From the NCBI GenBank assembly GCA_012518595.1, contig JAAYRV010000046.1, forward strand, positions 1-32,140: 32,140 nt of DNA, read 5' to 3'. The notes under the pieces are model-generated. The model made no database searches. It saw only the letters and a program-made list of their open reading frames with translations, and was not told the DNA's origin. Below are positions 3,902 to 26,336 of the stretch, one piece after another. The translations under genes were made by a program, and so were the position numbers. Source of the stretch: Bacillota bacterium (GTDB lineage Bacteria > Bacillota > SHA-98 > UBA4971). Position 1 is the stretch's first letter. Each line of letters opens with the position of its first letter.

Positions 3902-3953
3902 TGTTTTGCGTCTTCTTCTCCGGGAACGTTTGAAATCTATTGTATTATTGAAA

Positions 3954-4267
3954 GAGCGATGAAGGAGAAGAGTAAGCACGATAAGGCTCGAAGGAAGGGC
4001 ATGTCTGAGACTGAGAGCATGCCTGCGCCGGTCTTGCTGAAGTTCGCTCCGGAGCTGCAAGCTGAAAGCTTTTGAGAATAATGCTATTTGCAAGTAGGCT
4101 ATGTCGGCACCCTACCGTTACATAGGGAAACATGAGTTTGCTTTGTAAAAGAAGCTTGCATGTGGTTTAAGAGGTCAGGAGTCGCTTGTGGATTGCGATT
4201 TCCCTGACAATGAGGGTGGTAACGCGGGGCCACAGTCTTCGTCCCTTGAAGACTGTGGCCCCTCTCC
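3954..4267 (+). ncRNA. T-box leader (tRNA-Phe responsive) upstream of pheST
   Basis: T-box core GAGGGTGGTAACGCGGG (4213-4228); stem I base GAGC/GCTC (3954-3957/4046-4049); AGTA/GAA loop-E pair (3971-3974/4039-4041); helix AGCA/TGCT (3975-3978/4035-4038); specifier TTC at 4043-4045 = Phe codon; TGGT bulge (4217-4220) complements ACCA 3' end. Confidence 0.92.
4226..4262 (+). terminator. T-box terminator-type hairpin (15-bp stem, poor U-tract)
   Basis: GGGGCCACAGTCTTC-GTCCCTT-GAAGACTGTGGCCCC. Confidence 0.8.
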
Positions 4268-4286: not shown

Positions 4287-5318
4287 ATGGATGAGAAAGC
4301 AAAGAAGATCATATCTGAAGCTAGAAAGAGTATTGAGTCTGTGGTGAAGCTGCCGGAATTGGAAGAAATCCGCGTAAAGTATTTGGGAAAAAAGGGTGAG
4401 GTAACTCAAGCCCTCCGCAGTCTGGGTGAGTACCCCGAAGACGAAAGGCCTGTAGTCGGCCGGTTTCTCAATGAAGCAAGGGAAACCGTAAAAGAGATGA
4501 TAGAGGCAAGACGCAGCCACATAGCTGCCATTGACTTAGAGAACAAGCTTAAGGCCGAGGACCTTGACATAACGCTTCCGGGGAAAAGGCCTTCCCTTGG
4601 CGCGAGGCACCCTGTGAGTGTGGTCTATGAGGAATTGGAACGTATTTTTGCGCATCTCGGGTTTGAAGTATTGGAAGGGCCCGATGTAGAGCTGGACTAC
4701 AATAATTTCGAAGCCTTGAATGTGCCAAAGAACCATCCGTCCCGTGATATCCAGGACACTTTCTACATTACTGACGAATCTGTGCTCAGGACTCACACGA
4801 CTTGCGTGGACATTAGAATCATGAAAAACCGTAAACCGCCAATCCGAGCCATTATCCCCGGTAAGGTTTACAGGTCTGATGCATCTGACCCGTCGCACTT
4901 GCCTGTATTTCATCAGTTGGACGGGCTTGTGGTTGAGGAGGGAATAACCTTTGGAGACGTCAAAGGTGTGTTGGGAATGTTTGCCCATGAGTTCTTCGGT
5001 CCTGACACTGATGTGAGGTTCAGGCCGAGCTATTTCCCATTTACCGAGCCCAGCGCTGAGATGGATGTCTCCTGCGTCATATGTCACGGTTCCGGTTGCC
5101 GCCTCTGCAAGCATACAGGCTGGCTTGAAATCCTAGGATCAGGACTGCTTCACCCGAGAGTGCTTCGGGAAGTGGGCTATGATCCGGAGGAGGTTTCGGG
5201 GCTTGCGTTTGGGATGGGAATTGACAGAGTGACAATGTTGAAATACGGGATAGACGATATCCGGCTTCTTGCTGAAAACGATATGGCATTTAATCAGCAG
5301 TTTATACATGTTTGGTAA
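4287..5318 (+). CDS. pheS: phenylalanyl-tRNA synthetase alpha subunit
   Basis: Class II motifs (RTHTTCVDIRIM, FRPSYFPFTEPSAEMDVSC, LEILGSGLLHPRVL, GLAFGMGIDRVTMLKYGIDDIR); SD AGGAGG. Confidence 0.98.
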   Translation: MDEKAKKIISEARKSIESVVKLPELEEIRVKYLGKKGEVTQALRSLGEYPEDERPVVGRFLNEARETVKEMIEARRSHIAAIDLENKLKAEDLDITLPGKRPSLGARHPVSVVYEELERIFAHLGFEVLEGPDVELDYNNFEALNVPKNHPSRDIQDTFYITDESVLRTHTTCVDIRIMKNRKPPIRAIIPGKVYRSDASDPSHLPVFHQLDGLVVEEGITFGDVKGVLGMFAHEFFGPDTDVRFRPSYFPFTEPSAEMDVSCVICHGSGCRLCKHTGWLEILGSGLLHPRVLREVGYDPEEVSGLAFGMGIDRVTMLKYGIDDIRLLAENDMAFNQQFIHVW

Positions 5319-16665: not shown

Positions 16666-18624
16666 CTATCGGTAAAAAGATATCTTCATCCATGAGGGCA
16701 AAGATGTAGGTAGCCGCAGGCCGGCTAAGCCAAGATCGAAGTATGTACAGCACACAATCAGAATAGCCAAGGTTACCAGTAAAATTGCTGCATCAGCGCT
16801 AATACCTGCCAAAGCAATCTTACCGATAGCACCGTCCCTGGAATGATCCAGCCTGTGGCAGGCTGATAGTAGGCGCGATCTGATTGTCCTGCCAATTTCG
16901 GAAATACTCGCGATTGCCAAGTGATAGGACTCTTCTCCTGTCCGGATGACAGCAGCCAGGCTATGGCAGACAATTGCTCCTAAACCCTCCAAAGTCAAGA
17001 AGCCAGGAGGCGTCCAGTGAAATGCTCCGGTGGCAAGTCCGGCATAGCATACTAATATGCCAAGACCCAAAGTGATTATCATACCTGCGACATCACCGGT
17101 ATTCCAGAAGGAAAGATCTGCTATGCCGGCAAAAGCAGTCTCCATGCCCAAGCCTTGAGCTGCCGGTACTGCTAAGGCTTTGGGGAAAAGCTCCGGCCGG
17201 AGCCCAATGCCTACCATTACCACGGCAAGTACAGCCATAGATATGTGGAATTTCTGAGATGTTTCGCCTGAGATCTCAATCTCCGTGGGTTTGCCCAAGA
17301 AAATAAGATAGAAGAGCTTGGCAAAGGAAGCTGCTGTGCCTACCCCTACCAATAAGAATAACCTTTCTGCCCAAACCATCAAAGGCGCACCTGTTTGAGC
17401 AGCTCCACTCACTGCATGGTGGAGCAGAGTCTTGCTGGCATACCCATTGAGCCCAGGTGCGCCGGCAATACCTAAGACCGCCAAAAACATTAGGATTGCA
17501 GTAACCGGGAACCTGCGCCACAGCCCGCCCAGATTATACAAATCAGTCTCGCCGGTGCGAATGTAGATGACACCGACACCCAAGAATAAGGCTGCTTTGA
17601 ACAAAGCATGGTTGACAATATGGTAAATGCTTCCCAGAAGACCCAGACTGCCTGCTTTCCCCAAGGAAAGGCCGATACCCAACCCTAGGATGATATAACC
17701 CATCTGGCTTACACTGTGATAAGCCAAAAGCCGCTTGGCATCACTTTGCAATAGAGCGGCAAGTACCCCTACCAGCATTGTGCAGGTGCCCAGGGCAGTC
17801 AGGACAGGTCCTAACCATGGTGCCGCAGATGCGAACTCTAAACCCCAACCTGCGATCTCACCTGTGCGAATCAGACCATAGGCGCCTACCTTGATTAAGA
17901 GCCCGGACAGAAGGGTACTGGCGGGGGTTGGCGCTACTGAGTGTGCATGAGGCAGCCAAAGATGTAAAGGCGCCATACCTGCCTTGATTCCGAATCCGGC
18001 TACGATCACTGCCACGCCCCATGAAAAGGCCTGGGGCTTGAGGGGGGTTACCGGGCCAACGCCGATGGCAGGCAAACCAGAGGTAGCTATTCCAATCAGC
18101 ACAATCCCCAGGGCTAGGAGAAGTCCTCCGGCAATGCTAAAGAACAGATAGAAATACCCGGCCCGAATCGCGTGTTCATCTCGCCGATGGACGACCCAAA
18201 AAAACGAAGTTATGGTCATTAACTCAAAGAAAAGGAGCAAAGTAAAAAGGTCCCCGGCCAGAAACACTCCTAAGACCGCAGACAGCGTCAAAAGCGTGGA
18301 GATGTCAAAGCTTCGGGCTCTGCCTTCTTGTTTCATATACTCGGGAGAATATATGGAAACTACCCACCAAAGAAATGCAGCCAAAAGCACAAATATGGCA
18401 GATAGGGCATCAGCGCGAAAAGTTGGGACATATGGACCGGAAACAGGCAATCTATAGGTTAACGGGTTGCCCCCAAGCACGTCTCTTAACACCCGCTGCC
18501 CTAAAAAAAGAGTAAGAGAGCTAACGACAAAGGGAATATTGATACTCTTACCCCTTGTGCGCCTTGTCCCAACCAAGGCGAAAGCCCCTAAGAGAGGGAT
18601 AATCGGAAGGAGTACGAGCAGCAT
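16666..18624 (-). CDS. Mrp/NuoL-M-type proton antiporter subunit (third MrpD-like paralogue, 652 aa)
   Basis: Proton_antipo_M features: GYFYLFFSIAGGLLLALGIVL, KAGMAPLHLWLPHAHSVAPTPASTLLSGLLIKVGAYGL, LLAYHSVSQMGYIILGLG. Confidence 0.9.
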   Translation of the reverse strand: MLLVLLPIIPLLGAFALVGTRRTRGKSINIPFVVSSLTLFLGQRVLRDVLGGNPLTYRLPVSGPYVPTFRADALSAIFVLLAAFLWWVVSIYSPEYMKQEGRARSFDISTLLTLSAVLGVFLAGDLFTLLLFFELMTITSFFWVVHRRDEHAIRAGYFYLFFSIAGGLLLALGIVLIGIATSGLPAIGVGPVTPLKPQAFSWGVAVIVAGFGIKAGMAPLHLWLPHAHSVAPTPASTLLSGLLIKVGAYGLIRTGEIAGWGLEFASAAPWLGPVLTALGTCTMLVGVLAALLQSDAKRLLAYHSVSQMGYIILGLGIGLSLGKAGSLGLLGSIYHIVNHALFKAALFLGVGVIYIRTGETDLYNLGGLWRRFPVTAILMFLAVLGIAGAPGLNGYASKTLLHHAVSGAAQTGAPLMVWAERLFLLVGVGTAASFAKLFYLIFLGKPTEIEISGETSQKFHISMAVLAVVMVGIGLRPELFPKALAVPAAQGLGMETAFAGIADLSFWNTGDVAGMIITLGLGILVCYAGLATGAFHWTPPGFLTLEGLGAIVCHSLAAVIRTGEESYHLAIASISEIGRTIRSRLLSACHRLDHSRDGAIGKIALAGISADAAILLVTLAILIVCCTYFDLGLAGLRLPTSLPSWMKISFYR

Positions 18625-18643: not shown

Positions 18644-20089
18644 TCAGAAAAACCAGTTTACAACAGCGTCAACTCCGGGCCAAACCAGTCCCGGCCAAAG
18701 CCCTATCAAGAGCGCAATCCCTGCCAAGAGTAGCGTGGGGGCTAACATAAGACCCATCGCGCTTCCCTTTTCAAGGACAGGCTGCTCTCCTTTTTCGGCA
18801 AATGCAGCTACCACAGTGGGGATGAAGCAAAAAGCATTGATTAGGCCGCTGGCGATCAAGACTAAGGCCAACTGCCATTTCCCCATAGCTACACTGCCTC
18901 TCATCAAGTAATACTTACTCCAAAAGGTATTAAGAGGCAGCATTCCTATCATCCCGAGACTGGCTATACCAAATGCTGCCATAGTCCGGGGCAACTGCCA
19001 GCCTACCCCGCTCATCTCGCTGACTCTTACCTTGCCGGTTCCTTTGGCAATGATCCCTGCGCCAAAGAAAAGCGTGACTTTAAGAGTGGAGTAACTAATC
19101 ATATGGCAAATAGCTCCCGCTAATCCCCAAGGATGTAGCGTAAAAGCGCCCAGAAGAATATATGAGAGCTGGCTGACGGTATGATAAGCCAGCCGCCGCT
19201 TTAGGACATCCTGCTGAGTGGCAATTATGACCCCTACCAAAATGGTGAACGCAGCGACCCAGGGGAGGATGTGACTGAGATGTAGTTGTCCTGCCAGCTC
19301 ATGTCCGAACACGGAATATACTACCCTGACAATCCCATAGACACCGGAATAAACCACTGCTACAGCATGTAAGAGAGCGCTTACGGGAGTGGGGGCGCAC
19401 ATGGCTGCCGGCAACCAGCGATGCAGAGGCATTATGGCTGCTTTTACTCCGAACCCGGCCACAAATAAAGCCAGCACCCAGCCTAATCCCGGCCTGAGGC
19501 CACAGTCGGCCAACAGAGGCCCGCCTGTAAAATCCAGGTTGCCTGTCCAGCTGTAAACGATGATTATTGCTATCAAGATAGCCCCTGCGCCGGACAAGCT
19601 GTAGATAATGTATTTGGAGCCGGCTTTCATGGCTTCGCTGTTTCGTTCATGGATGACCAGGGGATATGTGGCAAAGGTGAGCAGCTCATAGAATAAATAC
19701 AGAGCCAATAGGTTTCCGGAAAAAGCCACCCCCAGCGTCACACTGAAAGCCAAAAGGAAATAGGTATAATAAGTTCGCTGTTTTTGCTCTTCTGCCATAT
19801 ATCCAAAAGAATAGACCCCTGCAAAGAGCCACAAGGTCGAAACAATCAGCCCAAAGACCGCTCCTAAGGGATCCGGATGCAGGCTCCAAGCCAATCCTGC
19901 GATTTCACCGGATATCCTTATGGTCCGGCCGGCAAATACCGCCCCGGCCACTCGCCAACTGAAAAGTGTGCCGGCTGCAGAAAATATTAATGCGACTATA
20001 TTGCGCAGGCGGTCACCTGCCCGGGGCATCAAAGCTATGAGTATTCCACCTGCTGCCCCGCTTGCGAGAGCCAGAACTAAATCAGTCAT
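18644..20089 (-). CDS. Mrp/NuoN-type proton antiporter subunit (second MrpD-like paralogue)
   Basis: GSKYIIYSLSGAGAILIAI, KAAIMPLHRWLPAAMCAPTPVSALLHAVAVVYSGVYG, RRLAYHTVSQLSYILLGAF. Confidence 0.9.
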   Translation of the reverse strand: MTDLVLALASGAAGGILIALMPRAGDRLRNIVALIFSAAGTLFSWRVAGAVFAGRTIRISGEIAGLAWSLHPDPLGAVFGLIVSTLWLFAGVYSFGYMAEEQKQRTYYTYFLLAFSVTLGVAFSGNLLALYLFYELLTFATYPLVIHERNSEAMKAGSKYIIYSLSGAGAILIAIIIVYSWTGNLDFTGGPLLADCGLRPGLGWVLALFVAGFGVKAAIMPLHRWLPAAMCAPTPVSALLHAVAVVYSGVYGIVRVVYSVFGHELAGQLHLSHILPWVAAFTILVGVIIATQQDVLKRRLAYHTVSQLSYILLGAFTLHPWGLAGAICHMISYSTLKVTLFFGAGIIAKGTGKVRVSEMSGVGWQLPRTMAAFGIASLGMIGMLPLNTFWSKYYLMRGSVAMGKWQLALVLIASGLINAFCFIPTVVAAFAEKGEQPVLEKGSAMGLMLAPTLLLAGIALLIGLWPGLVWPGVDAVVNWFF

Positions 20090-20121: not shown

Positions 20122-21618
20122 TTACTTCATTACCAAGAGATCAATCGCCGCTCTTTTAGCCAGTTCCAGAAAAGGCCCTGGTACCACACCTAGGATTATC
20201 ACCCAGGCGGCTAACATAATCAGCGCAATCATCTGCGGCAAACCAGGATCCCTGCAATCTGCCACAGGTGTAGGCTCAAAATAGGCAACTCGAATAATTG
20301 GAAAAAGGTAAGCTGCACAAAGTACGCTTCCTACGATGATCACTGCTTGAGCAAGGCGGTTCCCTGCTTCCAGGCTTCCGAGTAAAAGATGCCATTTGCC
20401 AACGAAACCGGAAAAGAGCGGTATACCAACGAGACTTACGCTACAGATGGTGAAAACCGCCATGGTTATAGGCATCTTTCTGCCGACACCGGCCATTTCA
20501 CTGATTCGGTTTTTGCCCGTAGTCGCGATTATCGCTCCTGCTGCCAGAAATAAGCCGGACTTGATCACGGCATGGCTGGCCATGTGAAACAGCATGCCGG
20601 TAAGGCTCTGGGAATTTGCAAGACCTAATCCTAAGAAGATGTACCCTACCTGTGCAACAGTGGAAAACGCTAACCTGCGTTTGAGCTTGTCTTGAGTCAA
20701 TGCAAATACGGATCCGGCAATTATTGCGATCATACCCAAAAGTGTCAGTATCCTGTGTATGCCGAAGTCCTGTATCAAAGCAATACCGAATACGTTGTAT
20801 AAGACCTTTATGAGGCAAATTGCATACCCTTTGACTGCGAGACCGGACAAGATTGCACTTGCAGGTGACGGAGCTGCGGAGTGAGCGTCAGGCAGCCAGA
20901 CGTGCAGAGGAAAAAGGGCGGATTTTACACCAAATCCCACCAAGAGAAAACTGGCTGCTATCCACACCACATGAGGATAGCCCTGCCAAACGCGATTGAG
21001 CTCGTGAGAGGCAAATTCCATATTCAAGTGCCCGGTGATAATGTACAAAAAGCCGATACCGCCGAGGATGAGAGCAGAGCCCAGTGTCGCCAGGATCAGA
21101 TAATTGAAAGCGGCTTCGGATGCCCAAGGATGATTCGAGGAGCTTACAAGACCGCAGCAGCTCAAGGTTGCAACTTCCACCAAGACAAAGACGTTGAAAA
21201 GATCCGAGGTCACAGCCATACCTGCCAATGCGCCGCCAAGCAAGAGATAAAGCGCGTAGAACCGGGTAGTCTGTTGGGGGCCCCCTACTTCATGGGTCAT
21301 GTTGTCAGCGGCAAAGAGGGCTATCGGCAGACTGACGCCGGCCACCATAAGTAGGAAGAAGCAACTTAAGTTGCTCACCTGAATTTCTATGCCCCATGGG
21401 GCCGACCAACCTCCCAAGCTGTAATTAATGGGATTGCCGTTCTGAATGAGGATGAGCGATGCCAAATAGCCCGCCCCCAAGAAACCCAGAGCCGTAGTGG
21501 CTGTCACCAGGCCCTCCACCAACCGGATCCGCCGGGCGAAAGTCGGCAAAACAAAGGCAACAAATAGGGGCATAATGACAACAAACACCGGTAAGTTAGA
21601 TTTGATTGTTGCCGTCAT
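20122..21618 (-). CDS. Na+/H+ antiporter subunit MnhD/MrpD (MbhH-like)
   Basis: FNYLILATLGSALILGGIGFLY, KSALFPLHVWLPDAHSAAPSPASAILSGLAVKGYAICLIKV, RRLAFSTVAQVGYIFLGLG; downstream of MrpC by ATGA overlap. Confidence 0.93.
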   Translation of the reverse strand: MTATIKSNLPVFVVIMPLFVAFVLPTFARRIRLVEGLVTATTALGFLGAGYLASLILIQNGNPINYSLGGWSAPWGIEIQVSNLSCFFLLMVAGVSLPIALFAADNMTHEVGGPQQTTRFYALYLLLGGALAGMAVTSDLFNVFVLVEVATLSCCGLVSSSNHPWASEAAFNYLILATLGSALILGGIGFLYIITGHLNMEFASHELNRVWQGYPHVVWIAASFLLVGFGVKSALFPLHVWLPDAHSAAPSPASAILSGLAVKGYAICLIKVLYNVFGIALIQDFGIHRILTLLGMIAIIAGSVFALTQDKLKRRLAFSTVAQVGYIFLGLGLANSQSLTGMLFHMASHAVIKSGLFLAAGAIIATTGKNRISEMAGVGRKMPITMAVFTICSVSLVGIPLFSGFVGKWHLLLGSLEAGNRLAQAVIIVGSVLCAAYLFPIIRVAYFEPTPVADCRDPGLPQMIALIMLAAWVIILGVVPGPFLELAKRAAIDLLVMK

Positions 21619-21998
21619 CTGCTTGCCACCTCTTTTTTCAGCTCTGCTATGCGACGGGCATCAGTTGTGCCGTAAAATTGATATAGCTTAATAATAAGTG
21701 CCAGAGCGAATGCGGTCACACTGACACTGACTACAATACCGGTTAACATTAAAGCTGATGGCAGTGGGTTGATATACAAGGCTTTCGGATTGGCTTTATC
21801 GAGTATGGGCACTGCGCCGCCGCGAATGTTGCCTGCTGCGATAAACATCAGGAAAATTGCGCTTTCCATGATGTTAATTCCGATTAACTTCTTGAACAAG
21901 TTCGAGCGGGTCAGCACGGTGAAAGCTCCGATAATGAAAAGAATCATGGCTGCAAAGTAAGGGTAATTGACCATTAGGCTATCCAGTAGTGTTTTCAT
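21615..21998 (-). CDS. Na+/H+ antiporter subunit MnhC/MrpC (NuoK-like)
   Basis: YFAAMILFIIGAFTVLTRSNLFKKLIGINIMESAIFLMFIAAG...PLPSALMLTGIVVSVSVTAFALALIIKLY. Confidence 0.93.
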   Translation of the reverse strand: MKTLLDSLMVNYPYFAAMILFIIGAFTVLTRSNLFKKLIGINIMESAIFLMFIAAGNIRGGAVPILDKANPKALYINPLPSALMLTGIVVSVSVTAFALALIIKLYQFYGTTDARRIAELKKEVASR

Positions 21999-22420
21999 GG
22001 CTCTTCCTCCATCATCGTAAAGAACAAAGTAATCATAGTGCTGGCAACCCTTATGCCGACACCAAGGCCGATGAGTCCGATCAACCCCCCGGAAGACAAT
22101 GCTCCCAGTTCTCCCAAATCAATTCCTGCCATCTTGTTGGCCAGAAAAGGAGCTCCCTTGAAAACGCCAACCATACCCATCATGCCGTACCAGAGTGTGC
22201 CATAGCTTTCTACCAGAGTGGTGACCTTTTCCGGCACTTTGGCTCTGCCCCTTTCCAGGCCATAGATGGTGGTAAAGGCGATAAAGGCCAGTCCCACCAC
22301 GATACCTCCGGCGAAGGAGCCCCCCGGAGAGACATGTCCGTGAAGAATTACATATAATCCGTACATCTGAATGAAAGGCAGAAGCAATGCGGCTACCCGT
22401 TTCAGGATGAAGTCTCTCAC
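21995..22420 (-). CDS. Na+/H+ antiporter subunit MnhB/MrpB (MbhF-like), GTG start at 22420
   Basis: VRDFILKRVAALLLPFIQMYGLYVILHGHVSPGGSFAGGIVVGLAFIAF; GTGA overlap with preceding gene. The longer track ORF (to 22570) is out-of-frame read-through of the upstream gene. Confidence 0.9.
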   Translation of the reverse strand: MRDFILKRVAALLLPFIQMYGLYVILHGHVSPGGSFAGGIVVGLAFIAFTTIYGLERGRAKVPEKVTTLVESYGTLWYGMMGMVGVFKGAPFLANKMAGIDLGELGALSSGGLIGLIGLGVGIRVASTMITLFFTMMEEEP

Positions 22421-22713
22421 TTCCCGCCACCCTCCTTTTCCGTGGTTTTCAGGGTGATGATCACTGCGAGTACGGCTGTAAACAGCACGATAGTCTCGAA
22501 CATGGTATCGTAAGCCCGGTAGTCGAGAACAATTGCAGTAATCATGTTGAGGACTCCCGTCTCTTCCCATGCGTTTTCAATATAGCCCTCGGATACTTGG
22601 TTCTGGACGGGATTCCCGGACATGCCGTAAGGAGGCAACTCGGCTACAGCGACAAGGACTACATAGGCAGCCAGCAAAAGAATGAAGAGTATTGGCAGAG
22701 TTCGCAATTTCAC
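22417..22713 (-). CDS. MbhE-like / MrpA-MrpB linker subunit
   Basis: Small membrane protein between DUF4040 and MrpB; ...LNMITAIVLDYRAYDTMFETIVLFTAVLAVIITL typical of this subunit. Confidence 0.8.
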   Translation of the reverse strand: MKLRTLPILFILLLAAYVVLVAVAELPPYGMSGNPVQNQVSEGYIENAWEETGVLNMITAIVLDYRAYDTMFETIVLFTAVLAVIITLKTTEKEGGGK

Positions 22714-22715
22714 CG

Positions 22716-22967
22716 TTAGTCCTCCTTTCGGGCGGTGCGAGAAATGACTACCATCATTAGAACAGTCATGGCGATTCCTGCGGCTGCTTCAGTAATGGCA
22801 ATATCAGGGGTGTTCATTTGCAGCCAGACTAAAGCCATAATCAGGGTATAGGCGCCGTAAACAATGACAGCATGCAATAAATCTTTAATGAAGTACATAG
22901 CCAAAGATGCCACCACCAGGATAAGGAGCATTACCATGGTTCCGTAATCAACAGCCGTAAAGCCCAT
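22716..22967 (-). CDS. DUF4040 / MbhD-like subunit (MrpA C-terminal-domain homologue)
   Basis: KDLLHAVIVYGAYTLIMALVWLQMNTPDIAITEAAAGIAMTVLMMVVISRT. Confidence 0.85.
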   Translation of the reverse strand: MGFTAVDYGTMVMLLILVVASLAMYFIKDLLHAVIVYGAYTLIMALVWLQMNTPDIAITEAAAGIAMTVLMMVVISRTARKED

Positions 22968-22977
22968 ATGCCTATCT

Positions 22978-23298
22978 TCACTCCTTGATCACTTTCGTGC
23001 CTTCCACAGGATACACTCCATGAATCAGTCCGGCTTTAGCTACCAGATGAGTCATGGTTGGATTAATTGTCCAAAACAAAACGAGGACAATTACTAGTTT
23101 AATACGTAGCGCCCAAGTAGGACTGAGCAAGAAAAGGCCTAACCCTGCCAACCCCACGCCCAATGTGTCCCCCATACCTACCCCATGCAGGCGAGTATAT
23201 GGATCCGGCAAGCGAAATAATCCTAAGGTACCGAGCGCAAACGCCAAAAAAGATCCGGCAAAACAGAGGTTTGCTAAGAATCTAATCAATCTAATCAC
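22978..23298 (-). CDS. Na+/H+ antiporter subunit MnhG/MrpG (GTG start 23298 preferred over 23334)
   Basis: GTLGLFRLPDPYTRLHGVGMGDTLGVGLAGLGLFL; SD GAGGAGG ~8 nt before GTG at 23298. Confidence 0.9.
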   Translation of the reverse strand: MIRLIRFLANLCFAGSFLAFALGTLGLFRLPDPYTRLHGVGMGDTLGVGLAGLGLFLLSPTWALRIKLVIVLVLFWTINPTMTHLVAKAGLIHGVYPVEGTKVIKE

Positions 23299-23602
23299 AA
23301 GACGCAGCCTCCTCTTCTTCGCCTTCAAATCCACCTAAACCCGGGAGCTTGAGCTGCCAATCACCTGGAGTCATCACTCGTAGTATCCAAAGCCCTCCCA
23401 CAAATCCACACAATACAAAGACAAAAGCCACATCGATAAATCCATAATCGCCTCTCATGAATGCCAGCAGTAAAATGATTACACTGACCTTACTGCTGAT
23501 AGCATTAATAGAAAGCAGCCGATCAATGACTGTCGGACCGATGATCGCCCGTAAGAGCACGAAAAGAATCAGTATCATGAGACCTACCAGTAGCCATAGC
23601 AT
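23291..23602 (-). CDS. Na+/H+ antiporter subunit MnhF/MrpF
   Basis: LLRAIIGPTVIDRLLSINAISSKVSVIILLLAFMRGDYGFIDVAFVFVLCGFVGGL; SD GGAGG. Confidence 0.92.
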   Translation of the reverse strand: MLWLLVGLMILILFVLLRAIIGPTVIDRLLSINAISSKVSVIILLLAFMRGDYGFIDVAFVFVLCGFVGGLWILRVMTPGDWQLKLPGLGGFEGEEEEAASCD

Positions 23603-24101
23603 GCTCTGTCCTCCTCCGTTTCCAAGATTCCAAGTGGCTTATTTCACGGATGATTTGCCAATTAAATAATTCGGCTGCTGCCTCACCTGTCAGCACATGG
23701 ACGATGAACTGACCGGTTTTGGGATCGATGTCCACAGTGACAGTACCCGGCGTGATGGTTATGCAGTTAGCCAAAAGCACCCTCCCCCAGTTGCTTTCAA
23801 TGGGAGGCCGCATGACTGCGAATACCGGCCCCACCGGAGGACTCGACAGCAAGATTGTCTTGGCAACAGCGATATTCGATTGAATTATGAAACGAACGAG
23901 AGTCAAGAGGCAGTGACCTAAGAGAAGCAGTTCTCCTGCAGAAAGCAAGCGGGGCAGCCTCGGGCCAAGATCCTGCCAGAACCAAACAGTCAAGATTGCC
24001 AAGACAGCTCCGACCAGAAGATGCTGCATGTCCACTTCTGCGGAGACCGCCAACCAAAATGCCACTAACAAAGCGCATAAGAGAAGAGATCTCTTGCGCA
24101 C
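23523..24101 (-). CDS. Na+/H+ antiporter subunit MnhE/MrpE (GTG start)
   Basis: FIIQSNIAVAKTILLSSPPVGPVFAVMRPPIESNWGRVLLANCITITPGTVTVDIDPKTGQFIVHVLTGEAA. Confidence 0.92.
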   Translation of the reverse strand: MRKRSLLLCALLVAFWLAVSAEVDMQHLLVGAVLAILTVWFWQDLGPRLPRLLSAGELLLLGHCLLTLVRFIIQSNIAVAKTILLSSPPVGPVFAVMRPPIESNWGRVLLANCITITPGTVTVDIDPKTGQFIVHVLTGEAAAELFNWQIIREISHLESWKRRRTEHAMATGRSHDTDSFRALTGDHRSDSH

Positions 24102-24211
24102 AATTATCCCTCCTGTCCACTATCAAAAGGATCTGTTTCCCACAGGGTTTTGCTCAATTGCGATAACAACACTACCCACAAGAACTAATCACGGTAAACA
24201 CACAAATGCGA

Positions 24212-25723
24212 TTAAGAGGCTGACGTTTGTGCCGCGTCCCGGGAAGCCTTACGCAAAGTGCTTTCCAGTTCCGGACATACCCTGCCACCAAAGTCACTCA
24301 TCAGGCCCATTCTTGTAAACATGTGCAAAGGCTTCTTCTTGAGCCCGCCTATGTAAAGGGTTTTACCTTCTTTTTGAAGTCTCCGGGCTAAATCCCTAAG
24401 AGCCAAGGCGCCGGTTTCGTCCATGGCAGGTACGTCAGAAAAATCCAAGACCAAAAAGGGTTTAGTGGAAATCTCCTTCATCTGATTTCTCAAGTTTTCC
24501 GTTCCGACAAAAAACAAAGGACCATTGAAAGTTACCACTTGGACATCAGGGTGAACTAACATGTCAGGAACGGAAGAACTCTCCTTATGGGTTACCTCAC
24601 TACCACCGGGTGAGGAAGCCAGCTCGACAATGACCGCAATCGCAGCTAAACCTACCCCGACTGCCACGGCAATCGTGAGATCCCGTACCACCGTCAGTAT
24701 GGTAGTTGTGGTCATAATTACCCCATAGCTCCAGCGGGCTCGGGGCATGAGCTTCAGGCTTTGCCAATCGGCTGTGCGCACTGAAGCCACCATGAGGATA
24801 GCTGCCAACGAAGCTAATGGTATACGTTTAGCAACAGGCCCCAGAACCAAGACGATGAGCAGTAAAAACACGGCATGTAGAATGCTGGAAAGACGAGTGC
24901 GTCCTCCGCTATAGACGTTTACTCCTGAGCGGGCGACAGCTCCGGAGACGGGGACTCCGCCGATGAAGGAAGAAACCAGATTCCCCAGACCCTGGCCGAT
25001 CAGCTCTTGGTTGCTATTGTGTTCGGCACCTATCATTCCATCGGTAACCTCGGCTGATAATAGCGCGGAGATACTTCCTAAGAGGCAAATTGTGATAGCC
25101 GGTCTGATTAACGGACCGACATCCGCGAAAGGCATGAGCGCCAGTTGAGGCCGGGGTATGCTAAAAGGTAGAGCTCCCACCACATGGGGGGTATGTACAA
25201 TGAGCTCATTCATTAGTAGACCTGCTATGAGTCCGAAAAGTGATTCAGGTACTTGTTTGAAAAACCGCAATGCAAGAAGAATCGCTAAGGTAGTAACTAA
25301 GGTGATGGAGGGTGTTGCCAGCGCATCGCCAATCGCCGTCATGAAAAACAGGATGGAAACGCCATTAGTGAAGCCTGCGATTACAGGTTGGGGAAGAAAC
25401 TTGACAAACTTGCCCAGCCGTAGAAGACCCAGGGCGACTTGCATCAGGCCGGCCAAAGCACCGGCCAAGAGCATACCGCCTACTCCATGCTTGCTGACAA
25501 TACTAACCAAAACCGCTGTCATTGCGCCGGTAGGCCCGGTGATCTGCACACCACAACCGCCAAACACGGCTGCTGTCAGACCGCCGAAAATTGAAGCATA
25601 TAAACCCGCTACAGCTCCCGCCCCGCTTGCAATTCCAAAGGCTAAAGCCAGGGGAAGGGCTACAACTGCTGCGGTAGCTCCTCCGATCACGTCACCCTTC
25701 ACACGCTCCCACCAGGATCTCAA
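24212..25723 (-). CDS. SulP-family anion transporter with STAS domain (start TTG 25723 preferred; track start 25783 falls in leader U-tract)
   Basis: GDVIGGATAAVVALPLALAFGIASGAGAVAGLYASIFGGLTAAVFGGCGVQITGPTGAMTAVL; C-terminal STAS (VVTFNGPLFFVGTENLRNQMKE...VLDFSDVPAMDETGALALRDLARRL). SD GAGGTGAG 5 nt before TTG. Confidence 0.9.
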   Translation of the reverse strand: MRSWWERVKGDVIGGATAAVVALPLALAFGIASGAGAVAGLYASIFGGLTAAVFGGCGVQITGPTGAMTAVLVSIVSKHGVGGMLLAGALAGLMQVALGLLRLGKFVKFLPQPVIAGFTNGVSILFFMTAIGDALATPSITLVTTLAILLALRFFKQVPESLFGLIAGLLMNELIVHTPHVVGALPFSIPRPQLALMPFADVGPLIRPAITICLLGSISALLSAEVTDGMIGAEHNSNQELIGQGLGNLVSSFIGGVPVSGAVARSGVNVYSGGRTRLSSILHAVFLLLIVLVLGPVAKRIPLASLAAILMVASVRTADWQSLKLMPRARWSYGVIMTTTTILTVVRDLTIAVAVGVGLAAIAVIVELASSPGGSEVTHKESSSVPDMLVHPDVQVVTFNGPLFFVGTENLRNQMKEISTKPFLVLDFSDVPAMDETGALALRDLARRLQKEGKTLYIGGLKKKPLHMFTRMGLMSDFGGRVCPELESTLRKASRDAAQTSAS

Positions 25724-25781
25724 GAAACTCACCTCGTCTATGGTAGTGGCGCCAAGTAGTCCCGAGGCGAACGTTGCCAAC

Positions 25782-25826
25782 AAAAAAGCGCAGGCAAAGT
25801 CCCACTAGGGCTAAGACACAACGCTT
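25782..25826 (-). terminator. candidate expression platform/attenuator hairpin with U6 tract
   Basis: Minus strand AAGCG...AGCCCTAGTGGGACT...CGCTTTTTTG; outer AAGCG/CGCTT and inner hairpin, followed by T-run 25787-25782. Confidence 0.4.
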
Positions 25827-25972
25827 GGACCACTCCTACGGGGTTAGCTGACGGGTTCGGGCACCCAAGTTGCCCTACCTGATCTGGTATTCAGGATTCA
25901 CCCCAATTAAGGGATCCCCCGTTTCCTGGTGAGGAATTCGGAGATAACGTGTATTCTTTTGCTTAAACAAGC
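25823..25972 (-). ncRNA. ydaO/yuaA-type (c-di-AMP) riboswitch
   Basis: Minus strand GGGGGATCCCTTAATTGGGGTGAATCCTGAATACCAGATCAGGTAGGGCAACTTGGGTGCCCGAACCCGTCAGCTAACCCCGTAGGAGTGG...; closing GCTTG/CAAGC (25972-25968/25827-25823). Confidence 0.9.
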
Positions 25973-25982
25973 CACAATTTTA

Positions 25983-26010
25983 ATCCTAGCACAAAACCGG
26001 CTGAAGTCAA
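25983..26010 (-). promoter_or_regulatory. promoter TTGACT-N16-TAGGAT (extended -10, TGC) for riboswitch-SulP-Mrp transcript
   Basis: Minus strand TTGACTTCAGCCGGTTTTGTGCTAGGAT; predicted TSS just before the riboswitch P1. Confidence 0.6.
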
Positions 26011-26084: not shown

Positions 26085-26336
26085 ACGAGCTGTCACAGTC
26101 AAGAATAACGGCAGGAATCGCCTGCGGATATTCCTCGCCAACAACTGGACGTAACCGTAGAAGATACGCAACACTGTGAGGTGGAAGAAGTGACAGTTAA
26201 GGAGCAAGCTGTCGCAGTCGGGGAAAACGGCTAAAACCGCAAACGGGTGTTTAGTTGTGGAAATTCCCGGCCGGCTGCAGTGGCCGCAGAAGAGATGTAA
26301 TATTGGGAGGCGGAGGAATTGCAAGTCAAGGAGCAA
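26085..26336 (+). repeat. two diverged tandem copies (~120-130 nt) forming the tyrS leader
   Basis: GCTGTCACAGTC (26089) vs GCTGTCGCAGTC (26208); GTAACCGTAGAAGATACGCAACACTGTGAGGTGGAAGAAGTGACAGTTAAGGAGCAA (26151-) vs GTGGCCGCAGAAGAGATGTAATATTGGGAGGCGGAGGAATTGCAAGTCAAGGAGCAA (26280-), ungapped. Confidence 0.75.

Follow-up and report, generated by a model that had tools for sequence, protein, structure and literature searches.

Among characterised c-di-AMP riboswitches, the ydaO RNA of Bacillus subtilis is described in review as an OFF switch (PMC5575661). In a tandem Na+/c-di-AMP riboswitch of Dehalobacter, c-di-AMP raises termination, and the P1 right shoulder/pseudoknot strand of the aptamer competes with the terminator (PMC9337991). 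A c-di-AMP riboswitch is also described for kdpFABC of Bacillus thuringiensis, which encodes a K+ uptake ATPase (PMC6488665).

Here we describe a member of the same class (RF00379) that stands before a SulP transporter gene and an Mrp-type antiporter module, in a 32,140-nucleotide stretch of Bacillota DNA (hereafter the window). The leader has the full-length aptamer, terminator platform and ion-transport target of its class, and is set apart by what that target is, an Mrp-type antiporter together with SulP. It shares with the Dehalobacter RNA a c-di-AMP aptamer joined to a terminator and a link to ion stress; that RNA, however, serves an osmolyte-precursor gene and includes a Na+ riboswitch (PMC9337991), whereas an Rfam search of the window returned no Na+ riboswitch over threshold. 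As with kdpFABC (PMC6488665), a multi-subunit cation transport operon is concerned, but here one for a cation/proton antiporter. Subunits E, F, G, B, C and D-like are common to the Mrp, MBH and MBS complexes (PDB 6cfw, 6u8y, 7qru, 6z16, 7d3u) and to the window's module, which also has the gene order and split MrpA parts of MBH/MBS; MBH and MBS possess a hydrogenase or oxidoreductase module, whereas no such partner was found for the window's module, which has three D-like subunits. The SulP fold and STAS domain are shared with BicA, although the acidic Na+-coordinating residue of BicA TM8 is Ser in the window's SulP clade. In the literature searched we found no earlier report linking RF00379 to Mrp, or to an Mrp-type antiporter plus SulP, although the original target lists of the class may name Mrp or SulP. 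Judged from sequence, this known class of riboswitch gains a new target in the SulP-antiporter operon.

Results

A first-pass annotation of the window had proposed a ydaO leader behind a promoter on the minus strand, followed by a SulP gene and then, with no obvious terminator between, the antiporter genes; all of these points are borne out. A covariance-model search places a full-length RF00379 aptamer (model positions 1-134) at 25953-25817 (-), with 92.8 bits (E 7.6e-21) against a gathering score of 38 bits. The promoter-like site TTGACT-16-TAGGAT, with TG before its second hexamer, was found by consensus scan at 26010-25983 (-), and a similar TTGACTT box occurs in most related leaders. The annotated span of 24102-26010 is correct, and the antiporter genes carry the feature on down to 16666. 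The window's genome encodes a diadenylate cyclase (DAC domain PF02457, E 4.5e-47), so the ligand c-di-AMP should be made.

RF00379 occurs twice in this genome. The second copy (L078 6932-7076, G000:C165) and its relatives in families f1 and f63 lie upstream of an oligopeptide-type ABC transporter; the group (L078 with L073, L080-L083, L085, L086 and L107-L109) carries a paired core change, GGGGCGAA with CCGAG[TC]CC in place of the usual GGGGUGAA with CCGAA[CU]CC, and the variant core was counted in 12 records, the usual one in 66. Divergent from the operon, upstream, lies tyrS, and between it and the riboswitch promoter is a 53-nt direct repeat (26155-26207 and 26284-26336; 75% identical, spacing 129), the second copy of which extends into the first codons of the tyrS ORF. 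Past the module lie PBP1A and, on the other strand, mutS2. Elsewhere in the window, a T-box leader (RF00230, 97.3 bits) at 3950-4249 (+) ends about 40 bases 5' of the ORF 4287-5318, a putative pheS.

Directly 3' of the aptamer is an intrinsic terminator at 25826-25782 (-), AAGCG...CGCUU followed by a U run, which stem conservation and fold energies identify as the expression platform. Its stem is kept in 17 distinct leaders with 92.4% of cells paired, compared with at most 67% once the register is slid, and its fold energy ranges from -10 to -20 kcal/mol in those related leaders having a U run; in leader L066 the U run is not clean. A candidate antiterminator strand, CGUAGG at 25840-25835 (-) in the 3' strand of the aptamer, pairs with CCUGCG at 25794-25789. 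Complementarity of CGUAGG to the right arm of the terminator is 6/6 in 15 of 18 leaders and 5/6 in the other three. Compensatory changes were seen in neither helix; since most pairs in both never vary, covariation counts are uninformative, and because the antiterminator pairs scarcely vary, their complementarity is no independent proof. When the leaders are folded with no ligand, the terminator is in most of them preferred to the candidate antiterminator, with no clear energy rule. The pairing proposed here also differs from that in Dehalobacter, where the alternative partner is the left arm of the terminator (PMC9337991).

The first gene of the operon encodes a SulP/SLC26 anion transporter with a STAS domain (24212-25723 (-); PF00916, E 1.9e-60; PF01740, E 1.5e-14). 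Its start is likely the TTG at 25723, behind GAGGTGAG; the mechanical ORF start at 25783 would fall within the terminator T-run. The nearest solved relatives are SLC26Dg and BicA, with a sequence match to 6ki1. Matched through the alignment and BicA numbering, the TM8 Asp that binds Na+ in BicA corresponds to Ser in 17/17 SulP sequences of the main clade, fragments included, and an Arg common to prestin and SULTR4;1 (eukaryotic SLC26) is also present in the clade. In this family an acidic TM8 residue is associated with coupling to cations, and the lack of that residue with proteins that exchange anions or act as anion channels (PMC8298490). The label "BicA-like" given at first-pass is therefore not supported; by this rule, the clade's SulP more probably exchanges anions or transports them uncoupled than works as a Na+/bicarbonate symporter. 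G035 has a second SulP gene (L076 6388-7884 (+)), 66% identical to that of the window, near which no riboswitch was found.

Between SulP and mrpE lie 110 bp, in which a simple scan, which might miss a promoter, found no terminator-like and no minus-strand promoter-like site. In G035 and G251 only 1 nt separates the two genes. Ten same-strand genes then follow (24101-16666), all identified by Pfam matches: mrpE (23523-24101; MNHE, PF01899, E 1e-26), mrpF (23291-23602; PF04066, E 1.2e-8), mrpG (22978-23334; MnhG, PF03334, E 3.7e-19), mbhD-like (22716-22967; PF13244, E 3e-14) and mbhE-like (22417-22713; PF20501, E 3.4e-9) subunits that are parts of MrpA in fused Mrp systems, mrpB (21995-22570; MnhB, PF04039, E 1.5e-23), NuoK-like mrpC (21615-21998; PF00420, E 1.9e-22) and three antiporter-like subunits with Proton_antipo_M domains (PF00361). 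These last are D1 (20122-21618; E 2.7e-57; best solved match 6u8y chain H), D2 (18644-20089; E 2.7e-51; best 6cfw chain H, then NDH-1 NdhF, 6hum chain F) and the 652-aa D3, the last gene of the module (16666-18624; E 1e-51; best 6cfw chain H).

Mrp subunits B, C, D, E, F and G are thus all encoded in one operon, whereas the large fused MrpA is absent: its MbhD and MbhE parts are separate genes, as are the three D-like subunits. The description of the module as a complete Mrp system can accordingly be made more precise: its type is split-MrpA and MBH/MBS-like, with three D-type subunits. Neither PF00374 nor PF00346, sought as marks of a hydrogenase/49-kDa partner, was found in the window's genome and 13 others (14 of 15 genomes examined), the exception being G132, a genome in which the SulP-antiporter operon was not found. 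A complex I partner for the module was also sought and not found. The gene content of the module best fits an Mrp-type antiporter that stands alone and whose A subunit is split.

Comparison of related SulP-Mrp loci, suggested along with the initial annotation, recovered the same leader. RF00379 lies just upstream of SulP in 9/9 close SulP relatives from named genomes, and the orthologous antiporter genes follow in these nine loci as far as the contigs reach. In total, the riboswitch was found ahead of an orthologous antiporter module at 19 loci in five families (f1, f18, f22, f63 and f141, as numbered for genomes with handles): the nine named-genome loci, of which L063-L065 coincide with G258, G325 and G161, the window, and G004, G005, G006, G031, G035, G179, G251, G295 and G394. 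In a tree of D1, all 15 riboswitch-linked rows fall in one clade (100/97). A fuzzy-motif scan of a phylum sample, with a motif that recovered all of L001-L032, found no riboswitch in 71 of 72 other Mrp upstream regions, some of which end early at contig ends. The single match is G394, counted among the 19 because of its identity to the window's SulP (67%) and MrpE (54%). Other Bacillota Mrp operons of the same gene order are without the riboswitch, and the simplest reading is that the riboswitch was recruited once to the SulP-antiporter operon.

Several relatives lack part of this arrangement. In G006, all that lies between the leader and mrpE is a ribosome-binding site, the opening codons of sulP and a fragment from the middle of that gene. 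G004 has the same sulP remnant, with half of the aptamer masked by N, and Rfam missed its riboswitch for that reason; we rejected G004 as an Mrp locus without riboswitch, since half of the aptamer is readable beside the N run. The two are sisters in the D1 tree, so that SulP decay there was probably one event. Independently, G031 keeps an intact aptamer and mrpE with only a broken piece of SulP between them, while its genus mate G295 retains an intact SulP. The riboswitch thus outlives SulP in two lineages, although in these three genomes SulP may have gone too recently for its loss to prove that the riboswitch is under selection. The opposite case is G078, in which a frameshifted SulP follows the riboswitch but no Mrp genes come after it. 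In the f44 genomes G132 and G097, RF00379 precedes a distant SulP (31-41% identical; L102 9671-11209 (-), L079 4817-5173 (+)) with no adjacent Mrp genes seen, the G097 contig ending there. In the G132 protein, the TM8 position is occupied by Glu.

Discussion

We consider it probable that the c-di-AMP riboswitch acts as a transcriptional OFF switch of a single operon, sulP-mrpEFG-mbhD-mbhE-mrpBC-D-D-D. This model builds on the aptamer, the terminator, the gene order, their conservation, and the decay of SulP with riboswitch and antiporter kept. By analogy with characterised members of the class, c-di-AMP most likely leads to termination, with the operon on when c-di-AMP is low. At high concentrations the ligand would bind, the folded aptamer would hold its 3' strand, including CGUAGG, and the terminator would form, lowering expression of SulP and antiporter alike. 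At low c-di-AMP, as under osmotic or salt stress, the freed 3' strand of the aptamer would base-pair with the terminator's right arm, letting RNA polymerase read on through the SulP and antiporter genes. Their products would expel Na+ (or K+) against H+ and also carry an anion, probably through exchange or without coupling, balancing pH, charge and volume.

It is improbable, in our view, that the riboswitch controls SulP only and that the antiporter genes merely follow with a promoter of their own. Such an arrangement would suit the riboswitches found before SulP without Mrp genes in G078 and before the distant SulP in G132, as well as the absence of the riboswitch from most Mrp operons; yet riboswitch and antiporter outlast SulP in two lineages, SulP and mrpE are 1 nt apart in G035 and G251, and the simple scan found no promoter-like site in the window's gap. 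The decay of SulP and the 1-nt gaps support the view that control takes in the antiporter and does not stop at SulP. Taken together with the G078 and f44 loci, where Mrp genes were not seen, they support joint control of both, as the first-pass annotation had supposed, and the conserved linkage agrees with this.

As to direction, an ON switch, with readthrough favoured by c-di-AMP binding, appears very improbable: the aptamer-flanking UCCAAG overlaps the left arm of the terminator, part of which a bound aptamer could in principle take, but the overlap is limited to the outer A-A-G of the stem, and both the Dehalobacter member (PMC9337991) and the B. subtilis ydaO RNA (PMC5575661) work in the opposite sense. 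Nor do we give much credence to a circuit in which the antiporter recycles Na+ brought in by a SulP that works, like BicA, as a Na+/bicarbonate symporter. BicA is among the closest solved relatives, and a cyanobacterial Mrp-like complex has been proposed to power SbtA, another Na+/bicarbonate symporter (PMC4390856); against this, the clade has Ser for the TM8 acid throughout and the eukaryotic SLC26 Arg instead, so Na+/bicarbonate symport is not supported.

The place of the riboswitch ahead of both, seen in a group of uncultured Bacillota bacteria, suggests that the levels of an anion carrier and a large Na+/H+ antiporter are set by a single osmotic-stress signal. We put forward only tentatively, as rather unlikely, the further idea that c-di-AMP controls a Na+(K+)/H+ antiporter and an anion exchanger as a unit, moving salt and acid/base for volume and pH control. 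If true, the unit would be the bacterial equivalent of the Na+/H+ and Cl-/HCO3- exchangers that animal cells use as a pair. Species in which the riboswitch is kept and SulP is lost offer a simple test of which gene it really serves. The best-known role of c-di-AMP is to limit the uptake of K+ and osmolytes; a conserved riboswitch before an Mrp-type module would bring the export of cations and the return of H+ under that signal too.
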